From Gammaproteobacteria bacterium UBA2168 (lineage in GTDB: Bacteria > Pseudomonadota > Gammaproteobacteria > Pseudomonadales > Azotimanducaceae), in the NCBI GenBank assembly GCA_002327525.1, contig DCWG01000125.1, positions 1 to 64,000 on the forward strand: a DNA stretch of 64,000 nucleotides, given 5' to 3'. A program made the position numbers and the translations under genes. Shown piece by piece: positions 13,521 to 22,745 of this stretch. The notes under the pieces are model-generated. The model ran no database searches. It saw nothing but the letters and a program-made list of their open reading frames with translations, and was not told where the DNA came from. Each line of letters begins with the position of its first letter. Positions within the stretch are counted from its first letter, which is position 1.

Positions 13521-14519
13521 ATGAAGATCCTTCTGGTCGCGCCGTCCTGGGTGGGCGACATGGTCATGGCGCACACCCTGGTCCAGGTGTTGGTCGAGCG
13601 CCATCCCGGCGCTCATATTCATGCGCTAGCCCCTGCTGCTACCGTTGCGCTGGCGGGGCGCATGCACGGGATCGATGCAGCCAGTCTGCTGGATGTAGGC
13701 CATGGCGAGGTGGGTTGGACCAGGCGCCGGGAGGCGGCGGGACGCTTTCGTGGATTCGATGCCGCCTACGTGTTGCCCAACAGTCTGAAATCGGCGCTCG
13801 TGCCGTTGTTTGCGCGCATACCGAAACGAATCGGGTGGTCCGGAGAGGCGCGCTACTTGCTGCTCAACGATCGACGAACGCTGGATACTCGGCGTCTGCC
13901 GCTCATGGTCGAGCGCTTCATGGCTCTCGGCCTGGAACCCGGGGAATCGTTGCCCGAACCCTATCCACGACCTCGCCTGGTGGTGGACGAAGACAATCGT
14001 ACAGCGGTGTGCCATCGCCTGGGACTGGACGTGCGCCAGGATGCCTCCAGTGATGTCGTGGCCCTGTGCCCCGGCGCTGAATTCGGCCCTGCAAAGAGGT
14101 GGTCCGCGGCGCACTACGCCGAAGTGGCAGGATTCGCGCTCACTGCCGGGGACGATGTCTGGTTGTTCGGTTCTCCCGGAGAGGCCGCAGTCTGTGCGGA
14201 GATCGAGTGTCTTGCACCAGGAGTCACGAACCTGGCGGGACGCACGTCGTTGCTCGATGCTATCGATCTGATGTCGCTTGCCCGCACCGTGGTGTGCAAC
14301 GACTCGGGGCTCATGCATGTCGCTTGTGCGCTTGAGCGAAAGGTCGTAGCCGTCTACGGTTCCACTTCACCTGGGTTCACACCACCGCTCGGAGAAGACG
14401 TGGTCGTATTGCGGGAGTCCCTCGATTGCAGCCCATGTTTCGAGCGCGAGTGCCCGCTGGGCCATATGAACTGCCTGAACAGCCTCGCGCCGAAGCGTGT
14501 CATCGAGGCATTGTCTTGA
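13521..14519 (+). CDS. waaF: ADP-heptose--LPS heptosyltransferase II
   Basis: WaaF (GT9) adds the second L-glycero-D-manno-heptose to the LPS inner core from ADP-heptose at the cytoplasmic face of the inner membrane. The 332-residue protein begins MKILLVAPSWVGDMVMAHTL, the GT9 N-terminal loop. It has LCPGAEFGPAKRW mid-protein and NDSGLMHVACALERKVVAVYGSTSP in the C-terminal nucleotide-sugar domain. CSPCFERECPLGHMNCL near the end is typical of WaaF. It is the first gene of the core operon; the next gene starts inside its stop codon. Confidence 0.95.
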   Translation: MKILLVAPSWVGDMVMAHTLVQVLVERHPGAHIHALAPAATVALAGRMHGIDAASLLDVGHGEVGWTRRREAAGRFRGFDAAYVLPNSLKSALVPLFARIPKRIGWSGEARYLLLNDRRTLDTRRLPLMVERFMALGLEPGESLPEPYPRPRLVVDEDNRTAVCHRLGLDVRQDASSDVVALCPGAEFGPAKRWSAAHYAEVAGFALTAGDDVWLFGSPGEAAVCAEIECLAPGVTNLAGRTSLLDAIDLMSLARTVVCNDSGLMHVACALERKVVAVYGSTSPGFTPPLGEDVVVLRESLDCSPCFERECPLGHMNCLNSLAPKRVIEALS

Positions 14520-15547
14520 AAGTGCTGCTGGTCAAGATGTCCTCCCTGGGTGACGTGGTGCATGCGCTGCCAGGGGTAACGGATGCGGCACGTCACGGTG
14601 TGCGCTTTGACTGGGTCGTGGAGGAAGACTTCGCGGACATCCCGGCATTACACCCTGCCGTGGAGGAGGTTATTCCCATCGCCTGGCGACGGTGGCGGAC
14701 ATCCGCCTGGCGGTCGCGCTCTGAGATGAGGACCTTCCTGTCACTACTGCGCGCGCGCCACTATGACCTCATTCTCGATACTCAAGGATTGATCAAGAGC
14801 GGCGTGGTCGCGCGCTTCGCACGAGGTGCGATACGTGCCGGGTACGATGGACAATCTGCCCGCGAAAGCATGGCCACGTGTTTCTACAACCGCCGTTTTA
14901 ATGTGCCCACCGGCACGCATGCGGTGGTTCGCCAGCGCGAGTTGTTTGCCACCGCGTTGGGTTACCTGGCCAATGGCATTCCCGAGTTTGGTCTGGAGGT
15001 TCCTAGCGAACGTGTGGAAGATCAGGTAGTGCTGGCACATGGCACTACCTGGGAGAGCAAGGAGTGGCCGGAGCCCATGTGGATCGAATTGGCGCAGTCC
15101 ATGCGCAGTGAAGGGCTGAGACCGGTTTTGCCCTGGGGCGACGATGAAGAATACGCGCGTGCTGAGCGCATTGCCTTGAGGTCGCGCGCGGAAATCCTGC
15201 CGCGGACAAACGTGGGTGGGCTTGTGAAGTTACTGGCCGGCGCCGGGGCTGTCATAGGTGTCGATTCAGGACTCACGCATCTGGCGGGCGCCCTGGGTAC
15301 GCCCACGGTGGTCGTGTATGGTGCAACCGATGCGCGATTGACCGGTGCACGAGGTGCCGGGGTCCGCAACTTGTCCTCGACACTCGAATGCGCGCCGTGT
15401 TTACGGCGGACGTGCAGCCACGGTGGAGCAGCACTGATCAGAAACGGAGCACCGGTGACACCGGCATGCTTCGCGAGCGTGGCACCCGAACGAGTGTGGC
15501 AAACCCTGCAGGAGCTTATGAATGCACCTCGCATTCTGCATCTTTAA
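14516..15547 (+). CDS. waaC: ADP-heptose--LPS heptosyltransferase I
   Basis: WaaC adds the first heptose to Kdo2-lipid A. I place the start at TTG 14516 (TTGA overlap with the waaF stop), giving MKVLLVKMSSLGDVVHALP, the canonical GT9 start; a longer reading from 14426 would overlap waaF by 94 bases. The 343-residue protein has YDLILDTQGLIKSG, the nucleotide-sugar region VIGVDSGLTHLAGALGTPTV, and a final YGATDARLTGA block typical of WaaC. Its 3' end overlaps the next gene by 26 bases. The reaction and order in the pathway come from the family. Confidence 0.94.
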   Translation: MKVLLVKMSSLGDVVHALPGVTDAARHGVRFDWVVEEDFADIPALHPAVEEVIPIAWRRWRTSAWRSRSEMRTFLSLLRARHYDLILDTQGLIKSGVVARFARGAIRAGYDGQSARESMATCFYNRRFNVPTGTHAVVRQRELFATALGYLANGIPEFGLEVPSERVEDQVVLAHGTTWESKEWPEPMWIELAQSMRSEGLRPVLPWGDDEEYARAERIALRSRAEILPRTNVGGLVKLLAGAGAVIGVDSGLTHLAGALGTPTVVVYGATDARLTGARGAGVRNLSSTLECAPCLRRTCSHGGAALIRNGAPVTPACFASVAPERVWQTLQELMNAPRILHL

Positions 15548-17777
15548 GTATTTCCCCTACGGCGGCATCCAGCGCGATCTGATGAAGCTGGTGGAGGAGT
15601 GTCGCGGTCGAGGAATGACCGTGCGGGTGTATGCGGCCAAGTGGAATGCGCCATTCCCACAAGGGCTGGATTTACGTCTGGCCCCCGTGCGCGCCCTCAC
15701 CAATCACCGCCTGTACGAGCGTTTTGCCGATTGGGTGCGAGACGATCTCGCCGAATCGCCGGTGGATGTGGTGGTGGGTATGAACAAGATGCCGGGACTC
15801 GACGTTTATTACGCCGGAGATTCCTGTTATCTCGACAAGGCGAGTACACAGCGTGGCATCTGGTACCGAACGCTGCCGAGGTATCGTTCGTTCGTACGGG
15901 CGGAGCGTGCTGTGTTCGATACGGGAGTGGATACGGAAATTCTCACTATATCGGCGCGGCAGAAATCCACGTTCAGGCGCTACTACGCTACCCCTGCGGA
16001 GCGCTTCCACGAATTGCCGCCCGGGATCGAGCGCGACCGGGTTGCACGGGAAGATGCCGAGGCGGTGCGCGCCGAGTTTCGCGCTGAGTTCGGGATAGGT
16101 GAGCAGGAGCAGCTGCTGCTGTTTGTGGGATCTGGATTCGTGAAGAAAGGTCTCGACCGCACCCTGCTCGCGTTGAAGGCGCTACCGCGCCGACTGTATA
16201 GAAATACCCGTCTGTTCGTGATCGGAGAGGACAACGCAGATCCGTTCATGAGACTCGCGCGGCGCCTCGGCGTCGATACGCAAGTCACTTTCTTCGCCGG
16301 TCGTGCGGATATCCCGCGTTTTCTGTTTGCCGCGGACGGGTTGCTGTTGCCGGCTTACGACGAAAACGCCGGTATGGTGATACTCGAAGCGATGATTGCC
16401 GGTTTGCCGGCGCTGGTGAGTGGCAACTGTGGGTACTCGCCTTATCTGAGGGAGGCCGATGCAGGCATTGTAAGTGCGGAACCGTTCGACCAGGGCGCGT
16501 TCGATACCGAACTCGTCGAACTACTGACTTCTCACGAACGCGCAGGCTGGTCTTCCAACGGGCGTGCACTGGCGCAGGCGGATATCTATTCGCTGGTGCC
16601 GCGGGCAGTGGACATCATCGCATCGGTCGGCGCCAGGGCGGAGCTGGTTGCCTTCTGTCTGTTCGCCTATTTCCCCTATGGTGGGCTGCAGCGTGATTTT
16701 TTGAAGGTAGCACTCGAGTGCGTGCAGCGAGGCTACCGTGTGCGCGTGTACGCGATGAGTTGGCAAGGCGGCGTGCCGGACGGTATCGAGTGGGTGCCCG
16801 TGCCGCAGAGCGGATTGACTAATCATCGCATCACGGCTCGCTTCGCACAGTGGGTGGCGGGTGACCTCGATCGGCGACCGGCGGATTGCGTGGTCGGCTT
16901 CAACCGTATTCCGGGACTTGACATCTACTACGCGGCCGATTCCTGTTTCGAGGAGAAAGCGAGAAGCCTGCGATCGCTGTGGTATCGATACACAGCTCGT
17001 TATCGGCTGTTTGCACGCTTTGAGCGGGCGGTGCTGGATCCAGGAGGTGACACGCGCATTCTCGTGCTTACCGAGCAGCAGCAGAAACAGTTTCAGGCGC
17101 ACTACGCCACGCCGGACGAACGCTTCGATCTCATGCCGCCGGGTATCGGTACGGATCGCCGGCGCCCTGGAGATGCGGACACCGTTCGTAAGGAATTTCG
17201 TGCCGAATTCGAACTCCACCCCCAGGATCGCCTGCTGCTCCTGATCGGATCGGGTTTTGTGACCAAGGGTGTGGATCGGGCTATCAGGGCACTCGCAGCA
17301 CTACCGAACGAGCGTGGGGTGCGTACGCTGCTGTTCGTCATCGGTGAGGACTCTGCGCGCCCCTTCGAGAAGCTGGCGGGTGATCTAGGCATCGGCGAGC
17401 GTGTGCGCTTCTTTCAGGGACGCGACGATGTGCCGCGTTTTCTGCAGGGCGCTGATCTAATGATCCACCCGGCGTATCTCGAGAGCGGGGGCATCGTGCT
17501 GCTTGAGGCCATCATTGCTGGACTGCCGGTGCTTGCGACGCAAACCTGCGGATTCGCTCCGCGTATCCTTCACGCGGACGCGGGCTGTCTGGTGCCGGAT
17601 CCGTTCGAGCAGAAAAGGCTCGATGCCTTGTTGCAGGACGCGCTAGAAGACAGCGCGCGGCTGGCTCGCTGGTCCGCCAACGGCATTCGCTACGGCCAAA
17701 GCGCTGATCTGTATGCCATGGGGCCGAAAGCAGTAGACGTGATCGAGGCGCGTCTGAAGGAGCAGCGCAGTGTCTGA
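15522..17777 (+). CDS. waaG: Tandem double WaaG: two LPS core glucosyltransferase I units in one chain
   Basis: WaaG (GT4) transfers the first glucose onto heptose II. The usual protein is about 374 residues; this one is 751 because two full copies are fused. Unit 1 (about 1-370) has FPYGGIQRD, NHRLYERFADW, MNKMPGLDVYYAGDSCY, LPPGIERDR, GSGFVKKGLDR and the EX7E pair E281/E289. Unit 2 (about 375-751) repeats all of these: FPYGGLQRD, FNRIPGLDIYYAADSCF, MPPGIGTDR, GSGFVTKGVDR, and E654/E662. The copies are clearly homologous but well diverged. The joint (ASVGARAELVAFC) has no spacer and no obvious second start codon. Both sites look intact, so two sugar transfers are possible. Overlaps: 26 bases with waaC, 8 with waaP. 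Confidence 0.93.
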   Translation: MHLAFCIFKYFPYGGIQRDLMKLVEECRGRGMTVRVYAAKWNAPFPQGLDLRLAPVRALTNHRLYERFADWVRDDLAESPVDVVVGMNKMPGLDVYYAGDSCYLDKASTQRGIWYRTLPRYRSFVRAERAVFDTGVDTEILTISARQKSTFRRYYATPAERFHELPPGIERDRVAREDAEAVRAEFRAEFGIGEQEQLLLFVGSGFVKKGLDRTLLALKALPRRLYRNTRLFVIGEDNADPFMRLARRLGVDTQVTFFAGRADIPRFLFAADGLLLPAYDENAGMVILEAMIAGLPALVSGNCGYSPYLREADAGIVSAEPFDQGAFDTELVELLTSHERAGWSSNGRALAQADIYSLVPRAVDIIASVGARAELVAFCLFAYFPYGGLQRDFLKVALECVQRGYRVRVYAMSWQGGVPDGIEWVPVPQSGLTNHRITARFAQWVAGDLDRRPADCVVGFNRIPGLDIYYAADSCFEEKARSLRSLWYRYTARYRLFARFERAVLDPGGDTRILVLTEQQQKQFQAHYATPDERFDLMPPGIGTDRRRPGDADTVRKEFRAEFELHPQDRLLLLIGSGFVTKGVDRAIRALAALPNERGVRTLLFVIGEDSARPFEKLAGDLGIGERVRFFQGRDDVPRFLQGADLMIHPAYLESGGIVLLEAIIAGLPVLATQTCGFAPRILHADAGCLVPDPFEQKRLDALLQDALEDSARLARWSANGIRYGQSADLYAMGPKAVDVIEARLKEQRSV

Positions 17778-18591
17778 ACTGTTCCTACGAGAGGATCTCG
17801 CCACTCATTTTGGCGGACTCGATGTGCTTGAGATAGCAGATCGTTTGCAGGGCGAGGTTTACCGACAGGTGGCTCGACGCCGCACTGTGCGCATGGAGAT
17901 TGGTGGCCGTGCCTACTTCGCCAAGGTGCACGAAGGTGTCGGTTGGGGAGAGATTTTCAAGAACTGGATGGTTTTGAAGCCGGCGGTGATCGGAGCCGAG
18001 AACGAGTATCTCGCCTGCCTCCATCTCGAGGCCGCCGGTGTGAGGGCACCGACCGTCGCCGGGTATGGATCCAGTGACGGGGGTGCGGCGCAGCGCACTT
18101 CCTGGGTGATCTGCGATGAACTGGCCGGACATCTAAGCCTCGAGGATTTGGTAGCCGACTGGGAAGCACGAGCGCCAACCTCTTGTCAGGTGCACGCGCT
18201 GGTGGAGGGAGTGGCGTCCTTTGTCAGGAACCTGCACGGGGCTGGTGTGGTGCATAGGGATCTATACATCTGCCATCTGTTGATCGATCAGGCAGCGTGG
18301 CGGGAGGGTGAAGTGAAGCTCGCGGTGCTCGACCTGCACCGGGCGCAGATACACGATCGCATTCCCCGGGAATGGCTTCTCAGGGATCTGGCCGCGCTGT
18401 TGTTTTCAACACTGGATCTGGGTTTGAGCCGGTACGCGTGGTTGCGTTTCGTGCGGCGATATCGCGGCCGGGATTTGCACGATGTATTTGATGAGGAAGG
18501 CAAATTCTGGCGGTTGGTTCATGCGCGCGCGCAGCAGCTGTATAGAAAGGGCGAAAGCAAGGGTCTCGTGAGCGGGGCATTCCGGCAGTGA
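17770..18591 (+). CDS. waaP: LPS core heptose(I) kinase
   Basis: WaaP phosphorylates heptose I of the inner core, a modification tied to outer-membrane integrity. The 273-residue protein has a protein-kinase-like fold. The ATP-binding lysine is in AYFAKVHEG, GWGEIFKNW matches the WaaP-specific loop, the catalytic loop is VVHRDLYICHLLI (D164, matching the family position), and the metal-binding DLHRAQ follows. The start is GTG 17770, eight bases inside the preceding gene. The stop overlaps the next gene's GTG (GTGA). Strong match in length and motifs. Confidence 0.94.
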   Translation: MSELFLREDLATHFGGLDVLEIADRLQGEVYRQVARRRTVRMEIGGRAYFAKVHEGVGWGEIFKNWMVLKPAVIGAENEYLACLHLEAAGVRAPTVAGYGSSDGGAAQRTSWVICDELAGHLSLEDLVADWEARAPTSCQVHALVEGVASFVRNLHGAGVVHRDLYICHLLIDQAAWREGEVKLAVLDLHRAQIHDRIPREWLLRDLAALLFSTLDLGLSRYAWLRFVRRYRGRDLHDVFDEEGKFWRLVHARAQQLYRKGESKGLVSGAFRQ

Positions 18592-19973
18592 CCCTGCTCG
18601 ACGCGGAAGCGGTGGCAGCACTCGGTCGAAATCTACCGGCATCGATAGAAATTCCGGTGGACGGTGGCCGCTTCGAGGGGGGAGAGGTGTTGCGCATGTT
18701 GCCCGGGCGTCGGCTGGTGTTGGGAGGACGTTTCCAGGATCGCACGGCCGTGATGAAAGTGTTCGTCGGTCGGAACGCGCGGCGCTATTACGAGCGGGAG
18801 CGGCAAGGCCTGGGGATCCTGTCGGCAGCAGGTGTTCCGGTGCCCGAAGCCTTTTGGCAGGGTTCGGTGCCGGCACGGGGTTGGGGCATGATCAATGCCT
18901 GGGTGGAGGATAGCCGGCCGCTGGGTGATGAGGACTGGGAGCAGGCACCGGTGCTGGCCGCCGTGTTGGCGGTGCTCCACGATGCCGGAGCGACCCACGA
19001 GGACCCGCATCTCGGTAATTTCCTAGTCGCACCCCGGGGTGTTGTCTGTGTGGATGGCGATGGTGTACGACGAGGTGCGGGCCGTGTGACGGAGACCGGT
19101 GGACTCGCCAACCTGGCTCGGATGATCGCGCAGTATCCGCCTCGGCCGGATCAGGATCTCACCGGGGTATTGCACACCTACGAAAGGAAACGAGGGTGGG
19201 GGGTAAACGAAGACCGGTTGCAGCGGCTGACCCGGCATCTGAGCGCCGCGCGCCGCGAACGCACGGAGCGCTACCTGGACAAGACCCTGCGTGATTGCAC
19301 GGAGTTCGCTGAGAGGCGCGTAAAGGGTTCGTGGCATATACACCGGCGTGACGCTGCCTCTGCCGATCTCATAAGTTTTCTCGAAGATCCGGATGCATGG
19401 CTCGCGGATGAGAGCCTGTTGAAGGATGGCAACTCGGCAACCGTGTACCGCACGCGCATGGCGGAGCGCTCGGTCATCGTTAAACGCTACAACATCAAGG
19501 GATTTGTTCATCGGGTACGGCGCTGGATCAAGCCGCGAGCGCGAATCGCCTGGCGCAACGGACACCGGCTTGCCTTCCTGCGCATTCCGACCTCCACCCC
19601 GATCGCGCTGGTCGAGGAGCGCACCGGCCCCCTGCGCGGACGGAGCTGGATCGTGATGGAGGACTGCGGTGACGAGGATTTGTTGGGTGTCGTCAACCTG
19701 GGTGGCTGGCAGAAAAACTGGCTCGACCAGGTGGCCCGAATCCTTATAACCTTCCGCGTTCTCGGTTTGAGTCACGGCGACATGAAGGCCAGCAACTTCC
19801 TGATTCTCGATGGCCTCGTCAGCATCGTCGACCTGGACGCCCTCGCAGAGGCGCCGGAACGCTGCGAACGCGACATCGAACGCCTCATTGCCAACTGGGA
19901 GGGACAGCCGCGGCTGCTCGAACCGCTCATGGATACCCTTCGTATGCACGGACTGCTGGAGACCACACATTGA
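18588..19973 (+). CDS. LPS core kinase with two kinase-like domains (WapQ/PA5006-type)
   Basis: A 461-residue protein made of two lipopolysaccharide-kinase-type domains. Domain 1 (about 30-240) has the ATP lysine in AVMKVFVG (K57), the catalytic loop ATHEDPHLGNFLV (D139) and the metal loop VCVDGDGVRR (D156). Domain 2 (about 275-461) has VIVKRYNIKG (K299), LSHGDMKASNFLI (D399) and SIVDLDAL (D415). All key residues are present in both, so both may be active. The position after waaP and before the carbamoyltransferase matches the Pseudomonas core locus, where such kinases act on core sugars. The start is GTG 18588. The exact acceptor is unknown. Confidence 0.85.
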   Translation: MTLLDAEAVAALGRNLPASIEIPVDGGRFEGGEVLRMLPGRRLVLGGRFQDRTAVMKVFVGRNARRYYERERQGLGILSAAGVPVPEAFWQGSVPARGWGMINAWVEDSRPLGDEDWEQAPVLAAVLAVLHDAGATHEDPHLGNFLVAPRGVVCVDGDGVRRGAGRVTETGGLANLARMIAQYPPRPDQDLTGVLHTYERKRGWGVNEDRLQRLTRHLSAARRERTERYLDKTLRDCTEFAERRVKGSWHIHRRDAASADLISFLEDPDAWLADESLLKDGNSATVYRTRMAERSVIVKRYNIKGFVHRVRRWIKPRARIAWRNGHRLAFLRIPTSTPIALVEERTGPLRGRSWIVMEDCGDEDLLGVVNLGGWQKNWLDQVARILITFRVLGLSHGDMKASNFLILDGLVSIVDLDALAEAPERCERDIERLIANWEGQPRLLEPLMDTLRMHGLLETTH

Positions 19974-21700
19974 TCATTCTCGGATTGTCAGGGGCGCTCG
20001 GTCACGACCCTTCCGCTGCGCTCCTGATCGACGGCGAGATCGTGGCGGCCGCGGAGGAAGAGCGCTTCATTCGTGACAAACATGCGCATGGACACATGCC
20101 CGTCGAAGCTGCTCGCTATTGTTTAGGGCATGCCGGAATAACCGGTGCCCAGGTGGACGTGGTAGCGTTTCCGTACGCCCCCATCAGCCTGTTGCGGCCT
20201 GACCGCTGGCATTACGCACGTCGATACTGGTATGCGCCGGATCGCTCTCTCGATGCTCTGTTGAATGGCAATCGACGCTTCCGGCGTAATCGCGGCCGGG
20301 TGATGAAAGCAGGCGATGAACTCGGTATTGACTGGGAGCGCACGCAATTCGTACCTGTAGAGCATCACTTGTCGCACGCCTCGAGCGCCTATCATCTGAG
20401 CGGCTTTCAGGAAAAAACCGCGATCATGGGGGTGGATGGCAAGGGCGAGTACGCAACTACGTTCTTCGGCTATGGTGAGAACGGACGCATCCATCGTATC
20501 AAGGAATTCTACGACCCCGACTCGTTGAGCGGCGCCTATGGGGCGATGACACAGTATCTCGGATTCGAGATGCTGGACGGCGAATACAAAGTCATGGGCA
20601 TGGCGCCGTACGGCGACCCGCAACGCTATGACCTGTCCCGCATTTTCCAGCCCAAGGGTAAGGGCTTCGAAGTGGACGCCAGATATGTCAACACCGTCGG
20701 TCTGCGGCGCCACAAGGACGAGGGTGTCGGTTTCTACTTCAGCGACGCCCTGATCGAGTGGTTGGGTCCGAGGCGCAAAGGGGATGTGGCGGACGAGCCG
20801 TACATCCACTACGCCGCCTCGATGCAAAAACTGTTCGAGGACTGGTGCCTGAAGCTGATGGAAACCTACCTCGGCGACATTCTCGCTCAGACCGGTAGGC
20901 TCGCTTTTGCCGGTGGAGGTGCGCTCAACGTGAAACTCAACCAGCGCATCGTTGCGCGCGATGACGTGAGCGAGTTGTTCGTACAGCCGGCCGGAGGCGA
21001 CTCGGGCACCTCGCTGGGAGCCGCAACCTACGTTGCTGCGCAGCGTGGAGAAACACTCTCACGCATGAACCACGTCTACCTCGGGCCAAGTTACAGCAAC
21101 GCGCAATGCGTGGAGGCGGTTACATCGAGTCGGTACGCGCTCGAACACAAACAGCTGGAAGATCCGGTGTTGCAGACGGCCGCTTTACTGGCCGATGGGC
21201 ACCCGGTCGCCTGGTTTCAGGGGCGCATGGAATTCGGCCCCCGCGCGCTGGGCGCGCGCAGCATTCTCGGCTGTCCGAGCGTGCCCGGCATCGCTGACCG
21301 CATCAATGAACAGATCAAGTATCGTGAACGCTGGCGGCCGTTCTGCCCGAGCGCCCTCGATCGCGTGGCCGCGGAAATCATCCAGACTGACCACCCTGCT
21401 CCTTTCATGACGATTACATTCGAGGTGGCCGAGCAGTGGCGCGATCGCATCCCCGAGGTGGTGCACGCGGACGGTACCGCAAGGGTGCAGATTGCCACGC
21501 GTGATACCAATCCGCGTTACTACGCGCTGCTAGAGCAGCTGGAGAAACTCACCGGCAATGGTGTGGTGCTCAACACGTCGCTCAATCGCCGGGGCGAACC
21601 CATGGTCTGCTCTCCGCGGGACGCCATAGAGATGTTCATGGGTTCCGATCTCGAGTACCTGGTACTTGAGGATACGCTGGTTACCAAGCGCGATGTCTGA
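19970..21700 (+). CDS. Carbamoyltransferase of the NodU/CmcH family, LPS-linked (WapO-like)
   Basis: A 576-residue O-carbamoyltransferase. It has the N-terminal actin-like fold opening GLSGALGHDPSAALLIDGEI and EEERF, then VEHHLSHASSAYHLSGF and VDGKGEYATTFF. The C-terminal adenylate-forming domain follows with AFAGGGALNVKLN, FGPRALGARSIL and RWRPFCPSAL. The family makes carbamoyl-adenylate from carbamoyl phosphate and ATP and transfers the carbamoyl group to a sugar hydroxyl. In Pseudomonas a gene in this position carbamoylates core heptose; the same role is inferred here from synteny. The start is TTG 19970, overlapping the kinase stop (TTGA). Confidence 0.9.
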   Translation: MIILGLSGALGHDPSAALLIDGEIVAAAEEERFIRDKHAHGHMPVEAARYCLGHAGITGAQVDVVAFPYAPISLLRPDRWHYARRYWYAPDRSLDALLNGNRRFRRNRGRVMKAGDELGIDWERTQFVPVEHHLSHASSAYHLSGFQEKTAIMGVDGKGEYATTFFGYGENGRIHRIKEFYDPDSLSGAYGAMTQYLGFEMLDGEYKVMGMAPYGDPQRYDLSRIFQPKGKGFEVDARYVNTVGLRRHKDEGVGFYFSDALIEWLGPRRKGDVADEPYIHYAASMQKLFEDWCLKLMETYLGDILAQTGRLAFAGGGALNVKLNQRIVARDDVSELFVQPAGGDSGTSLGAATYVAAQRGETLSRMNHVYLGPSYSNAQCVEAVTSSRYALEHKQLEDPVLQTAALLADGHPVAWFQGRMEFGPRALGARSILGCPSVPGIADRINEQIKYRERWRPFCPSALDRVAAEIIQTDHPAPFMTITFEVAEQWRDRIPEVVHADGTARVQIATRDTNPRYYALLEQLEKLTGNGVVLNTSLNRRGEPMVCSPRDAIEMFMGSDLEYLVLEDTLVTKRDV

Positions 21701-22745
21701 AACGGCCGTCAACACGCTGCTGCAAATTTGCCCGAATGACCACCCGCCTTTCCGCGATCTCTGTGCCGTGTACGCGCGCGCTGCCGGGGAGCTCGGCATG
21801 CGAGCTCGTACGGTCTATCTCGCCCCGCCCATGGGCGCGCGGGGCGCACAGGGCGAGCACGCGGGTGTGTCCTATCTCGGCTGCGAAGATCTCGGCCGCT
21901 CGCGGCAAGTGACTCGCGCTTTTAACGCAGCGGTCGATGCGGGGCCCGGCACGCTGGTTCTCTGCCACCGCTACAGGGCTTACCTAATATGGCTTCGGTC
22001 CGGGCAGAGCGCGGCGCGCGTGATCGCGCTGGCGCACGAATTCGGTTTTTTCAAACGCTTGCAACGTCGCGTCATCAGGCGCGTGCTGGCGCGAAAAGTA
22101 GAGTTCGCGGGCGTTTCGCCGGCCGTGGTGGTAGAACTGGAAAAAACGGTGGCGCGTGCGCACGAATTGCCGAACGCGTTGGATCTCGAACAGCTCAAAG
22201 CCCTGTCGCGTGACGAGGCACGACGTGCCCTGGGCCTGCCGGCCGAAGGCCGCCTGTGTGCCGTAGTTGGTCGGCTGCATCGAAAGAAGCGCCCGGATCT
22301 CGCGCTCACCGCCTTCATCGCGGCGGACCTGCCAGGCTGGCGGTTGGTGTTTGTCGGCGATGGCGAGCTGCGGGGCGCCCTTGAAAGTCAGGTGAGAGGT
22401 GAGTCGGTGATCTTCACTGGCTTCGTGGAAGACGCGCGCCGCTATCTGGCTGCATTCGATGCGCTTCTGATGACCTCCAGTGCAGAAGAGGCATTCGGCA
22501 TGGCCGCGCTCGAGGCCATGGCGGCCGGTCTGCCCGTGGTGGCACCCCGGGTGCCGGGACCGCAAAGCGTGCTTGGCGAGTGTGGCTACTATTTCGATGA
22601 TGCGAGTAGCGAACCGGTGGCGCGGGCGCTGTGTGCAGCCGCACGTGATGGTGGGGAGCGCGCGGAAGAGGGCATTGACCGTGTGCGGCGAGACTTTTCG
22701 CTGAGTGCTGTGGTGCGGCGTCTGGATTCGTTGCGTTACTTCTAG
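21693..22745 (+). CDS. Group 1/GT4 glycosyltransferase, LPS core (WapH-like)
   Basis: A GT4-type glycosyltransferase of 350 residues when started at ATG 21693 (MSETAVNTLLQICPNDHPPF), which overlaps the previous gene by eight bases. The C-terminal nucleotide-sugar domain has VGRLHRKKRPDLALTAFI, FVGDGELRGALE, FTGFVEDARRYLAAFD and the EX7E-like block SSAEEAFGMAALEAMAAGLPVVAP. It is the last gene of the core operon, at the position of the Pseudomonas wapH gene. The donor and acceptor sugars cannot be read from sequence; an outer-core hexose transfer is the likeliest role. Confidence 0.85.
   Translation: MSETAVNTLLQICPNDHPPFRDLCAVYARAAGELGMRARTVYLAPPMGARGAQGEHAGVSYLGCEDLGRSRQVTRAFNAAVDAGPGTLVLCHRYRAYLIWLRSGQSAARVIALAHEFGFFKRLQRRVIRRVLARKVEFAGVSPAVVVELEKTVARAHELPNALDLEQLKALSRDEARRALGLPAEGRLCAVVGRLHRKKRPDLALTAFIAADLPGWRLVFVGDGELRGALESQVRGESVIFTGFVEDARRYLAAFDALLMTSSAEEAFGMAALEAMAAGLPVVAPRVPGPQSVLGECGYYFDDASSEPVARALCAAARDGGERAEEGIDRVRRDFSLSAVVRRLDSLRYF

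Follow-up and report, generated by a model that had tools for sequence, protein, structure and literature searches.

Does positions 15522 to 17777 of the window, the 64,000-nucleotide stretch of DNA analysed here (contig DCWG01000125.1, assembly GCA_002327525.1) from the Azotimanducaceae member Gammaproteobacteria bacterium UBA2168, encode two lipopolysaccharide (LPS) core glycosyltransferases of the WaaG type in a single polypeptide, and if so, what might such a protein do? An earlier note on this DNA had claimed two complete WaaG glucosyltransferases, joined by an old duplication and fusion that might have produced a processive enzyme adding two hexoses or given one half a new acceptor. We observed an open frame of 751 codons on the forward strand with zero internal stops, and the junction between the two units is ordinary coding sequence. 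The WaaG structures of Escherichia coli and Pseudomonas aeruginosa in the PDB match both units over approximately 365-370 residues, with E-values of 5e-101 to 3e-132. The N-unit is 46% identical to E. coli WaaG and 53% identical to P. aeruginosa WaaG, and the corresponding values for the C-unit are 48% and 54%. The uninterrupted frame and the matches of both units to solved WaaG bear out the claim of two complete units in one chain, and alignment confirms the two EX7E pairs, E281/E289 and E654/E662. The whole protein thus departs from known WaaG, a single unit of approximately 374 residues, in having two units.

Each unit carries K209, D19, D100 and R18 in addition to EX7E, and the catalytic and uridine diphosphate (UDP)-binding residues are kept in both. 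Each is predicted to adopt a GT-B fold, and the fold of the C-unit was compared with known WaaG structures. Pfam models of glycosyltransferase family 4 (GT4) give two matches in the protein, both above the cut-off; NCBIfam models likewise give two matches, every one of them below the cut-off, and a PHROGs search gives a weak glycosyltransferase match at most. No solved two-WaaG chain is among the Foldseek and VIA matches listed. The two units are identical at 191 of 369 aligned positions (52%), with 13 gap positions that lie chiefly at the ends. Third-codon-position G+C is 0.69 versus 0.68 in the two halves, so neither half looks foreign.

How widespread is the joined form? The protein database searches cover the best 120 of 692, 3403 and 1124 matches, and their counts lean toward relatives of the query. 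The best 120 of the 692 matches to the whole protein are each 735-786 residues long, and scanning with a WaaG profile detects exactly two units in each of 121 proteins, the window protein included. A search with a distant member (best 120 of 1124) adds 98 further proteins with two full units in each. Searching for long two-WaaG chains thus yielded at least 218 database clusters, and 8 of the first 120 sit on contigs of 3.9-5.7 Mb. These 218 relatives, together with the 52% identity between the halves, uphold the earlier claim that the fusion is neither a recent duplication nor an assembly artefact. The sources label the fused proteins merely 'WaaG', and the JGI name, where one is given, is 'UDP-glucose:(heptosyl)LPS alpha-1,3-glucosyltransferase'. 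Candidatus Azophilus lithoversatilis shares the family of the window genome (G323:C72:36532-38778, the same coordinates as locus L040), and NCBI taxonomy places the genus Candidatus Azophilus within Candidatus Azotimanducaceae. Two of the 98 second-set proteins, P0252 and P0255, also carry the name Candidatus Azotimanducaceae at NCBI.

In a survey of 206 genomes of the family, 108 have a match at 1e-60 and 98 do not, with classes read from the match table. Both units lie in a single frame in 48 of the 108 matched genomes, and contig ends cut the locus in 5. In 19, the N-unit is followed by a C-unit that is decayed or trimmed (7 in genus g7 and 12 in genus g37; 12 of these were inspected, as was genome G006, and the other 6 were judged by match range and frame). 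One N-like waaG is present in 26 genomes, an N-like waaG with a second waaG on a separate contig in 2, and another single waaG in 8. The 23 new family loci L080-L102 carry two full units in each. In an order-level sample of 293 genomes, 92 have a match, and match ranges and frames reveal no fused protein among the 86 matched genomes outside the family. Within one family, Candidatus Azotimanducaceae, the joined form is common. The second waaG in G363 (L115) and G364 (L116) belongs to a waaG-waaP pair, which may represent a second core locus or DNA of foreign origin; that of L115 falls near neither half in a quick tree, and the two genomes have contamination values of 5% and 7%.

Is the product really one polypeptide? 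That it is an artefact of assembly or annotation is scarcely credible. The window genome is a draft in 165 contigs, and no 751-residue copy of the window protein is among the database matches listed (best 120 of 692), but the 218 further clusters with two full units, the 8 of them on large contigs and the difference between the halves at approximately half their residues all speak against an artefact. The open frame, the ordinary coding junction and the 218 relatives rule out an overlooked stop codon or frameshift where the units meet. Two adjacent separate genes are ruled out at the loci examined: each locus inspected has either the fused gene or a single waaG, at an unchanged position in the operon wherever the flanking genes are conserved, and no adjacent separate waaG pair occurs in 41 loci or in the loci of the first relatives. 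In L064 and L036 the single waaG is broken or cut, and in G363 and G364 the second waaG lies on another contig only. We also regard it as very improbable that an internal start yields the C-unit as a separate polypeptide. Such starts have been called in databases: P0122 is the window C-half as a 377-residue protein with CTG 16644 as its first codon, and similar entries are P0140 (CTG, L043) and P0143 (ATG, L010/L041), all within open fused frames. Moreover, an in-frame ATG, GTG or TTG lies near the joint in 10 of 33 distinct fused junctions. However, the other 23 of the 33 have none, nor is there one in the 10 codons preceding the window C-unit, and a Met stands just before the C-unit in 1 of 121 proteins. 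Linker length is also narrow, being 3-5 residues in 88 of 121 proteins and 8-12 in the remaining 33 of 121. A start codon at the joint is not conserved, and the stand-alone C-half entries traced to DNA are taken as gene calls that split a fused gene.

Given that both units appear complete, do they share a donor? A basis for comparison is P. aeruginosa WaaG (PaWaaG), which, in the part of Scaletti et al. 2023 (PMC10579960) drawn on here, hydrolyses UDP-N-acetylgalactosamine (UDP-GalNAc) and is switched to UDP-glucose hydrolysis when Y97, T208, N282, T283 and T285 are replaced by their E. coli counterparts F, R, A, A and I; E. coli R208 is suggested there to bind acceptor phosphate too. We counted pocket signatures in 117 of 145 fused rows left after a 90% identity cut, the 145 including loci that duplicate database proteins, and refer to the fused proteins as types I and II after the clades described below. 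Lys208 in the N-unit and Thr208 in the C-unit occur jointly in 113 of the 117 distinct fused proteins (the exceptions being P0067, P0079, P0118 and L051) and in 97 of the 98 further fused proteins, all 98 of which belong to the type II N clade. When every column was scanned, just two, one of them 208, combined a conservation of at least 90% in each half with a difference between the halves; position 208 is a dot in the earlier note's motif GSGFV.KG.DR, and it is the residue that separates the halves across the family. At positions 97/99/208/282/283/285, type I N-units read YGKNAM in 56 of 92 and type I C-units YATSGI in 59 of 92. Type II N-units read mostly YAK(N/A)AI, and type II C-units read YATNTT, the PaWaaG set, in 23 of 25, with the five-residue PaWaaG signature present in 84 of the 98 further type II C-units.

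The window protein is classed by its sequence as a type I fusion. Its C-unit lacks the PaWaaG signature for UDP-GalNAc, having Y, T, S, G and I at those five positions. The E. coli glucose pocket has R208, A283 and I285; the window N-unit, with K208/A283/M285, is near to it, and the C-unit has T208/G283/I285. Single WaaG proteins carry both kinds of pocket. Three Pseudomonas loci, L066-L068 (Pseudomonas sp. FEN, P. batumici and P. gingeri), have a single WaaG with K208/A283/M285. The GalNAc signature is conserved across the Pseudomonas species compared in the part of PMC10579960 drawn on here, and these three may add a different first sugar.

The relationship of the halves was examined in trees. 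A first selection retained 44 of the 145 fused and 31 of the 45 single sequences (identity cut-offs, with singles below 330 residues excluded). The careful tree of 66 rows holds 22 of the 44 fused proteins, 20 of the 31 singles, E. coli WaaG and PaWaaG; it excludes L051 and 11 singles that are divergent, redundant or truncated, including one Legionellaceae and one Legionellales sequence. In this tree, 17 type I N-units group with 11 singles in one clade (100/99), the 17 type I C-units form a singles-free clade of their own (100/99), and 5 type II N-units form a clade with two singles (100/99). The single waaG genes are dispersed within the N clade, and one of them, L053, is the sister of the N-unit of the fused protein P0008 (100/100). 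Repeated loss of the C-unit would be the simplest reading of these scattered singles, although tree counts cannot separate gain from loss. The distances among N-units and among C-units correlate (r = 0.93 and 0.85), indicating that the halves are inherited together. The free tree separates type I from type II N-units, but the approximately unbiased test does not reject topologies with a single N clade or a single C clade (p-AU 0.427 and 0.381); the trees appear compatible with one fusion or two at the origin of types I and II. One single WaaG, L029 (G023), groups with type II C-halves. The idea that the C-half never occurs alone was dropped, as stand-alone C-half database proteins exist. A FastTree tree places 23 single entries in the type I C clade; 4 are visibly cut fused proteins, 3 lie in open fused frames, and 16 are not traced to DNA, the tracing having taken in P0122-P0170.

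What has become of the C-unit in relatives? In 11 full-length C-units (7 loci of g37 and 4 of g7), K209 and E281 are lost in 11 of 11 and E289 is changed to Asp in 10 of 11. The N-units of these loci and of L112 keep K209, E281 and E289 in 12 of 12, and R173 is altered in the g7 N-units. Two of the genomes concerned, G470 and G471, are single contigs, so the decay is not an assembly effect. In L112 (G467) only the first Rossmann domain of the second unit remains, and it continues in frame into WaaP; inspection by eye reveals the same arrangement in L032 (G006). L117 (G431) is a single WaaG fused to WaaP; it has the type I C signature and a long branch, and was not placed in the tree. Since the C-unit is absent in many relatives and catalytically dead in the inspected loci of two genera, it is, as judged from these genomes, the more dispensable half. 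The N-units of L110-L114 (g7), loci with a C-unit that is truncated or deprived of catalytic residues, have Thr208, the usual C-unit state; those of L103-L109 (g37) retain Lys208.

With regard to function, we lean toward a bifunctional LPS-core glycosyltransferase with two donors that arose by duplication and fusion of waaG. Both units would act on the same growing core. The N-unit would be the housekeeping WaaG and add the first, glucose-type hexose to heptose II, and the C-unit would add a second residue from a different UDP-sugar, either to that first residue or to a neighbouring heptose, with the fusion holding the two steps together. C-unit activity, or the whole C-unit, would have been lost in some lineages. 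The donor of type II C-units would be UDP-GalNAc, because their signature is mostly identical to the proven one of P. aeruginosa. For type I C-units, including that of the window, reasoning from the pocket suggests that the donor is perhaps a gluco-form N-acetylhexosamine, for example N-acetylglucosamine, because Thr208 would give the 2-acetamido group room and Ser282/Gly283 would drop the axial-O4 contacts. The earlier proposal of an enzyme adding two hexoses survives in part. A real and old duplication and fusion, with complete, diverged and probably active units, is retained. The terms 'two glucosyltransferases' and 'processive' are not, in that the C-unit pocket (Thr208) does not appear to match the glucose pocket of E. 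coli WaaG and there is no indication that one site adds sugars repeatedly. The earlier suggestion of a new acceptor for one half may hold. Since the Lys/Thr208 sites differ in a conserved way and there is no sign of repeated addition, a two-donor enzyme would be likeliest.

Several points weigh against this assignment. A lysine at 208 is covered by our own extension of the published argument, and neither characterised enzyme shares the type I C signature carried by the window protein (S282, G283, I285). Both kinds of pocket also occur in single WaaG proteins, so the pocket difference is not tied to fusion. The predicted structure has a predicted template modelling score (pTM) of 0.75, with the mutual orientation of the units unsure. 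In the inspected g7 and g37 loci whose C-half catalytic residues are lost, the protein is not bifunctional. Finally, residue 208 may contact acceptor phosphate, as suggested in the part of PMC10579960 drawn on here, so the Lys/Thr split could reflect the acceptor. The two units might then use the same donor on different acceptors (heptose I and II, or heptose and first hexose), with the pocket following the acceptor. A precedent is Campylobacter jejuni Cj1135, a two-domain lipooligosaccharide (LOS) beta-1,4 glucosyltransferase that has one- or two-domain variants among strains, according to the portions of PMC3428305 and PMC10877375 drawn on here. We consider this unlikely, as the full five-residue GalNAc signature is present in most type II C-halves and not in their N-halves, and the difference between A283 and T/G283 lies at the sugar. 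It is less plausible still that only the N-unit works as an enzyme and the C-unit serves as a scaffold or regulatory pseudo-enzyme. The catalytic losses in g7 and g37, the missing second domain in L112, the intact N-units and the frequency of N-like single WaaG in the family are consistent with such a role, but the essential set of the C-unit is kept in the window and in 114 of 117 and 94 of 98 fused proteins. A bolder form of the two-donor reading is tentative: one polypeptide may lay a fixed two-sugar unit, a glucose-type residue plus an N-acetylhexosamine, on the inner core by way of an ancient Lys208/Thr208 donor switch in Candidatus Azotimanducaceae, and the genera may form a series in which both units are active, the C-unit is dead, the C-unit is trimmed to one Rossmann domain and fused to WaaP, or the C-unit is gone. 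If true, this would be a natural experiment on the origin, pseudo-enzyme stage and loss of bifunctional transferases.

The fused gene lies directly after two heptosyltransferase genes, in the order waaF-waaC-[waaG-waaG]-waaP, and the order from waaF to the additional GT4 gene is the same in the Pseudomonas loci L066-L068.

Table 1. Features of the fused gene and its operon in the window (pocket positions 97/99/208/282/283/285, E. coli numbering).
Feature	Position	Strand	Detail
waaF, heptosyltransferase II	13521..14519	+	TIGR02195, 405 bits
waaC, heptosyltransferase I	14507..15547	+	TIGR02193, 317 bits; read from 14507
waaG-waaG fusion gene, 751 residues	15522..17777	+	single open frame
N-unit, residues 1-370	15522..16631	+	complete WaaG/GT4; pocket Y G K N A M
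Lys208 codon, N-unit	16143..16145	+	donor-pocket switch position
EX7E of N-unit (E281, E289)	16362..16388	+	
Linker, 3 residues	16632..16640	+	
C-unit, residues 374-745	16641..17756	+	complete WaaG/GT4; pocket Y A T S G I
Thr581 codon (position 208), C-unit	17262..17264	+	donor-pocket switch position
EX7E of C-unit (E654, E662)	17481..17507	+	
waaP, core heptose(I) kinase	17770..18591	+	NF011703, 277 bits
Carbamoyltransferase	19970..21700	+	homologue in same order in L066-L068
Additional GT4 glycosyltransferase	21666..22745	+	

Other neighbours in the window are an aminotransferase gene (ilvE, assigned by eye), htrB on the opposite strand and hldE. Positions 18588-19973 encode a 461-residue protein in which residues 279-417 give a kinase-like match (Kdo/WaaP family) and residues 124-159 a weak match to RfaY; this single chain seems to contain two kinase-like domains, and its homologues are present in the operons of many relatives. 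The operons of L060, L061 and L065 have a single N-type waaG with no waaP directly downstream. In L056, the single waaG is followed by one glycosyltransferase-like and two methyltransferase-like genes (by eye).

According to the part of PMC10579960 drawn on here, WaaG determines the first sugar of the outer core and is under study as an antibiotic-adjuvant target. Two paralogous WaaG sites that apparently use different donors, placed next to one another, provide an internal control for the donor-specificity rule that has been proposed on the basis of PaWaaG. The fusion also gives a core-structure prediction for Azotimanducaceae, and the series from active to dead C-units makes the fate of fused enzymes testable. 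Annotation, whether as 'WaaG' or as a split gene, can mask the two-unit architecture. Our open-access literature search, with most subscription papers outside its scope, found, among the matches listed, no description of a WaaG-WaaG protein and no LPS work on Azotimanducaceae. The dual-unit WaaG is real, widespread and apparently undescribed.

How does the fusion compare with known systems? The exostosins EXT1, EXT2 and EXTL3 have two transferase domains per chain, each thought to add one sugar, in the account given in part of PMC9178029. Their domains belong to GT47 and GT64, two separate families, and act in polymerisation, whereas the fusion consists of two paralogues of one family with no sign of polymerisation. 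C. jejuni Cj1135, an LgtF-like enzyme, resembles the fusion in having two transferase domains in one inner-core enzyme. Unlike the fusion, it is not a WaaG duplication, and we take it to belong to a glycosyltransferase family other than WaaG's. WaaG (RfaG) itself is a GT4 enzyme with structures from E. coli (2iw1/2iv7) and P. aeruginosa (8b5q), and each unit resembles it over its full length, in catalytic residues and in operon place. Known WaaG has one unit and one donor, whereas the fusion has two units per chain with two differing donor pockets. Likewise, the P. aeruginosa-type core operon (waaF-waaC-waaG-waaP ... carbamoyltransferase) has a gene order shared by the window and L066-L068, but those Pseudomonas loci carry a single waaG where the window carries the fused pair.
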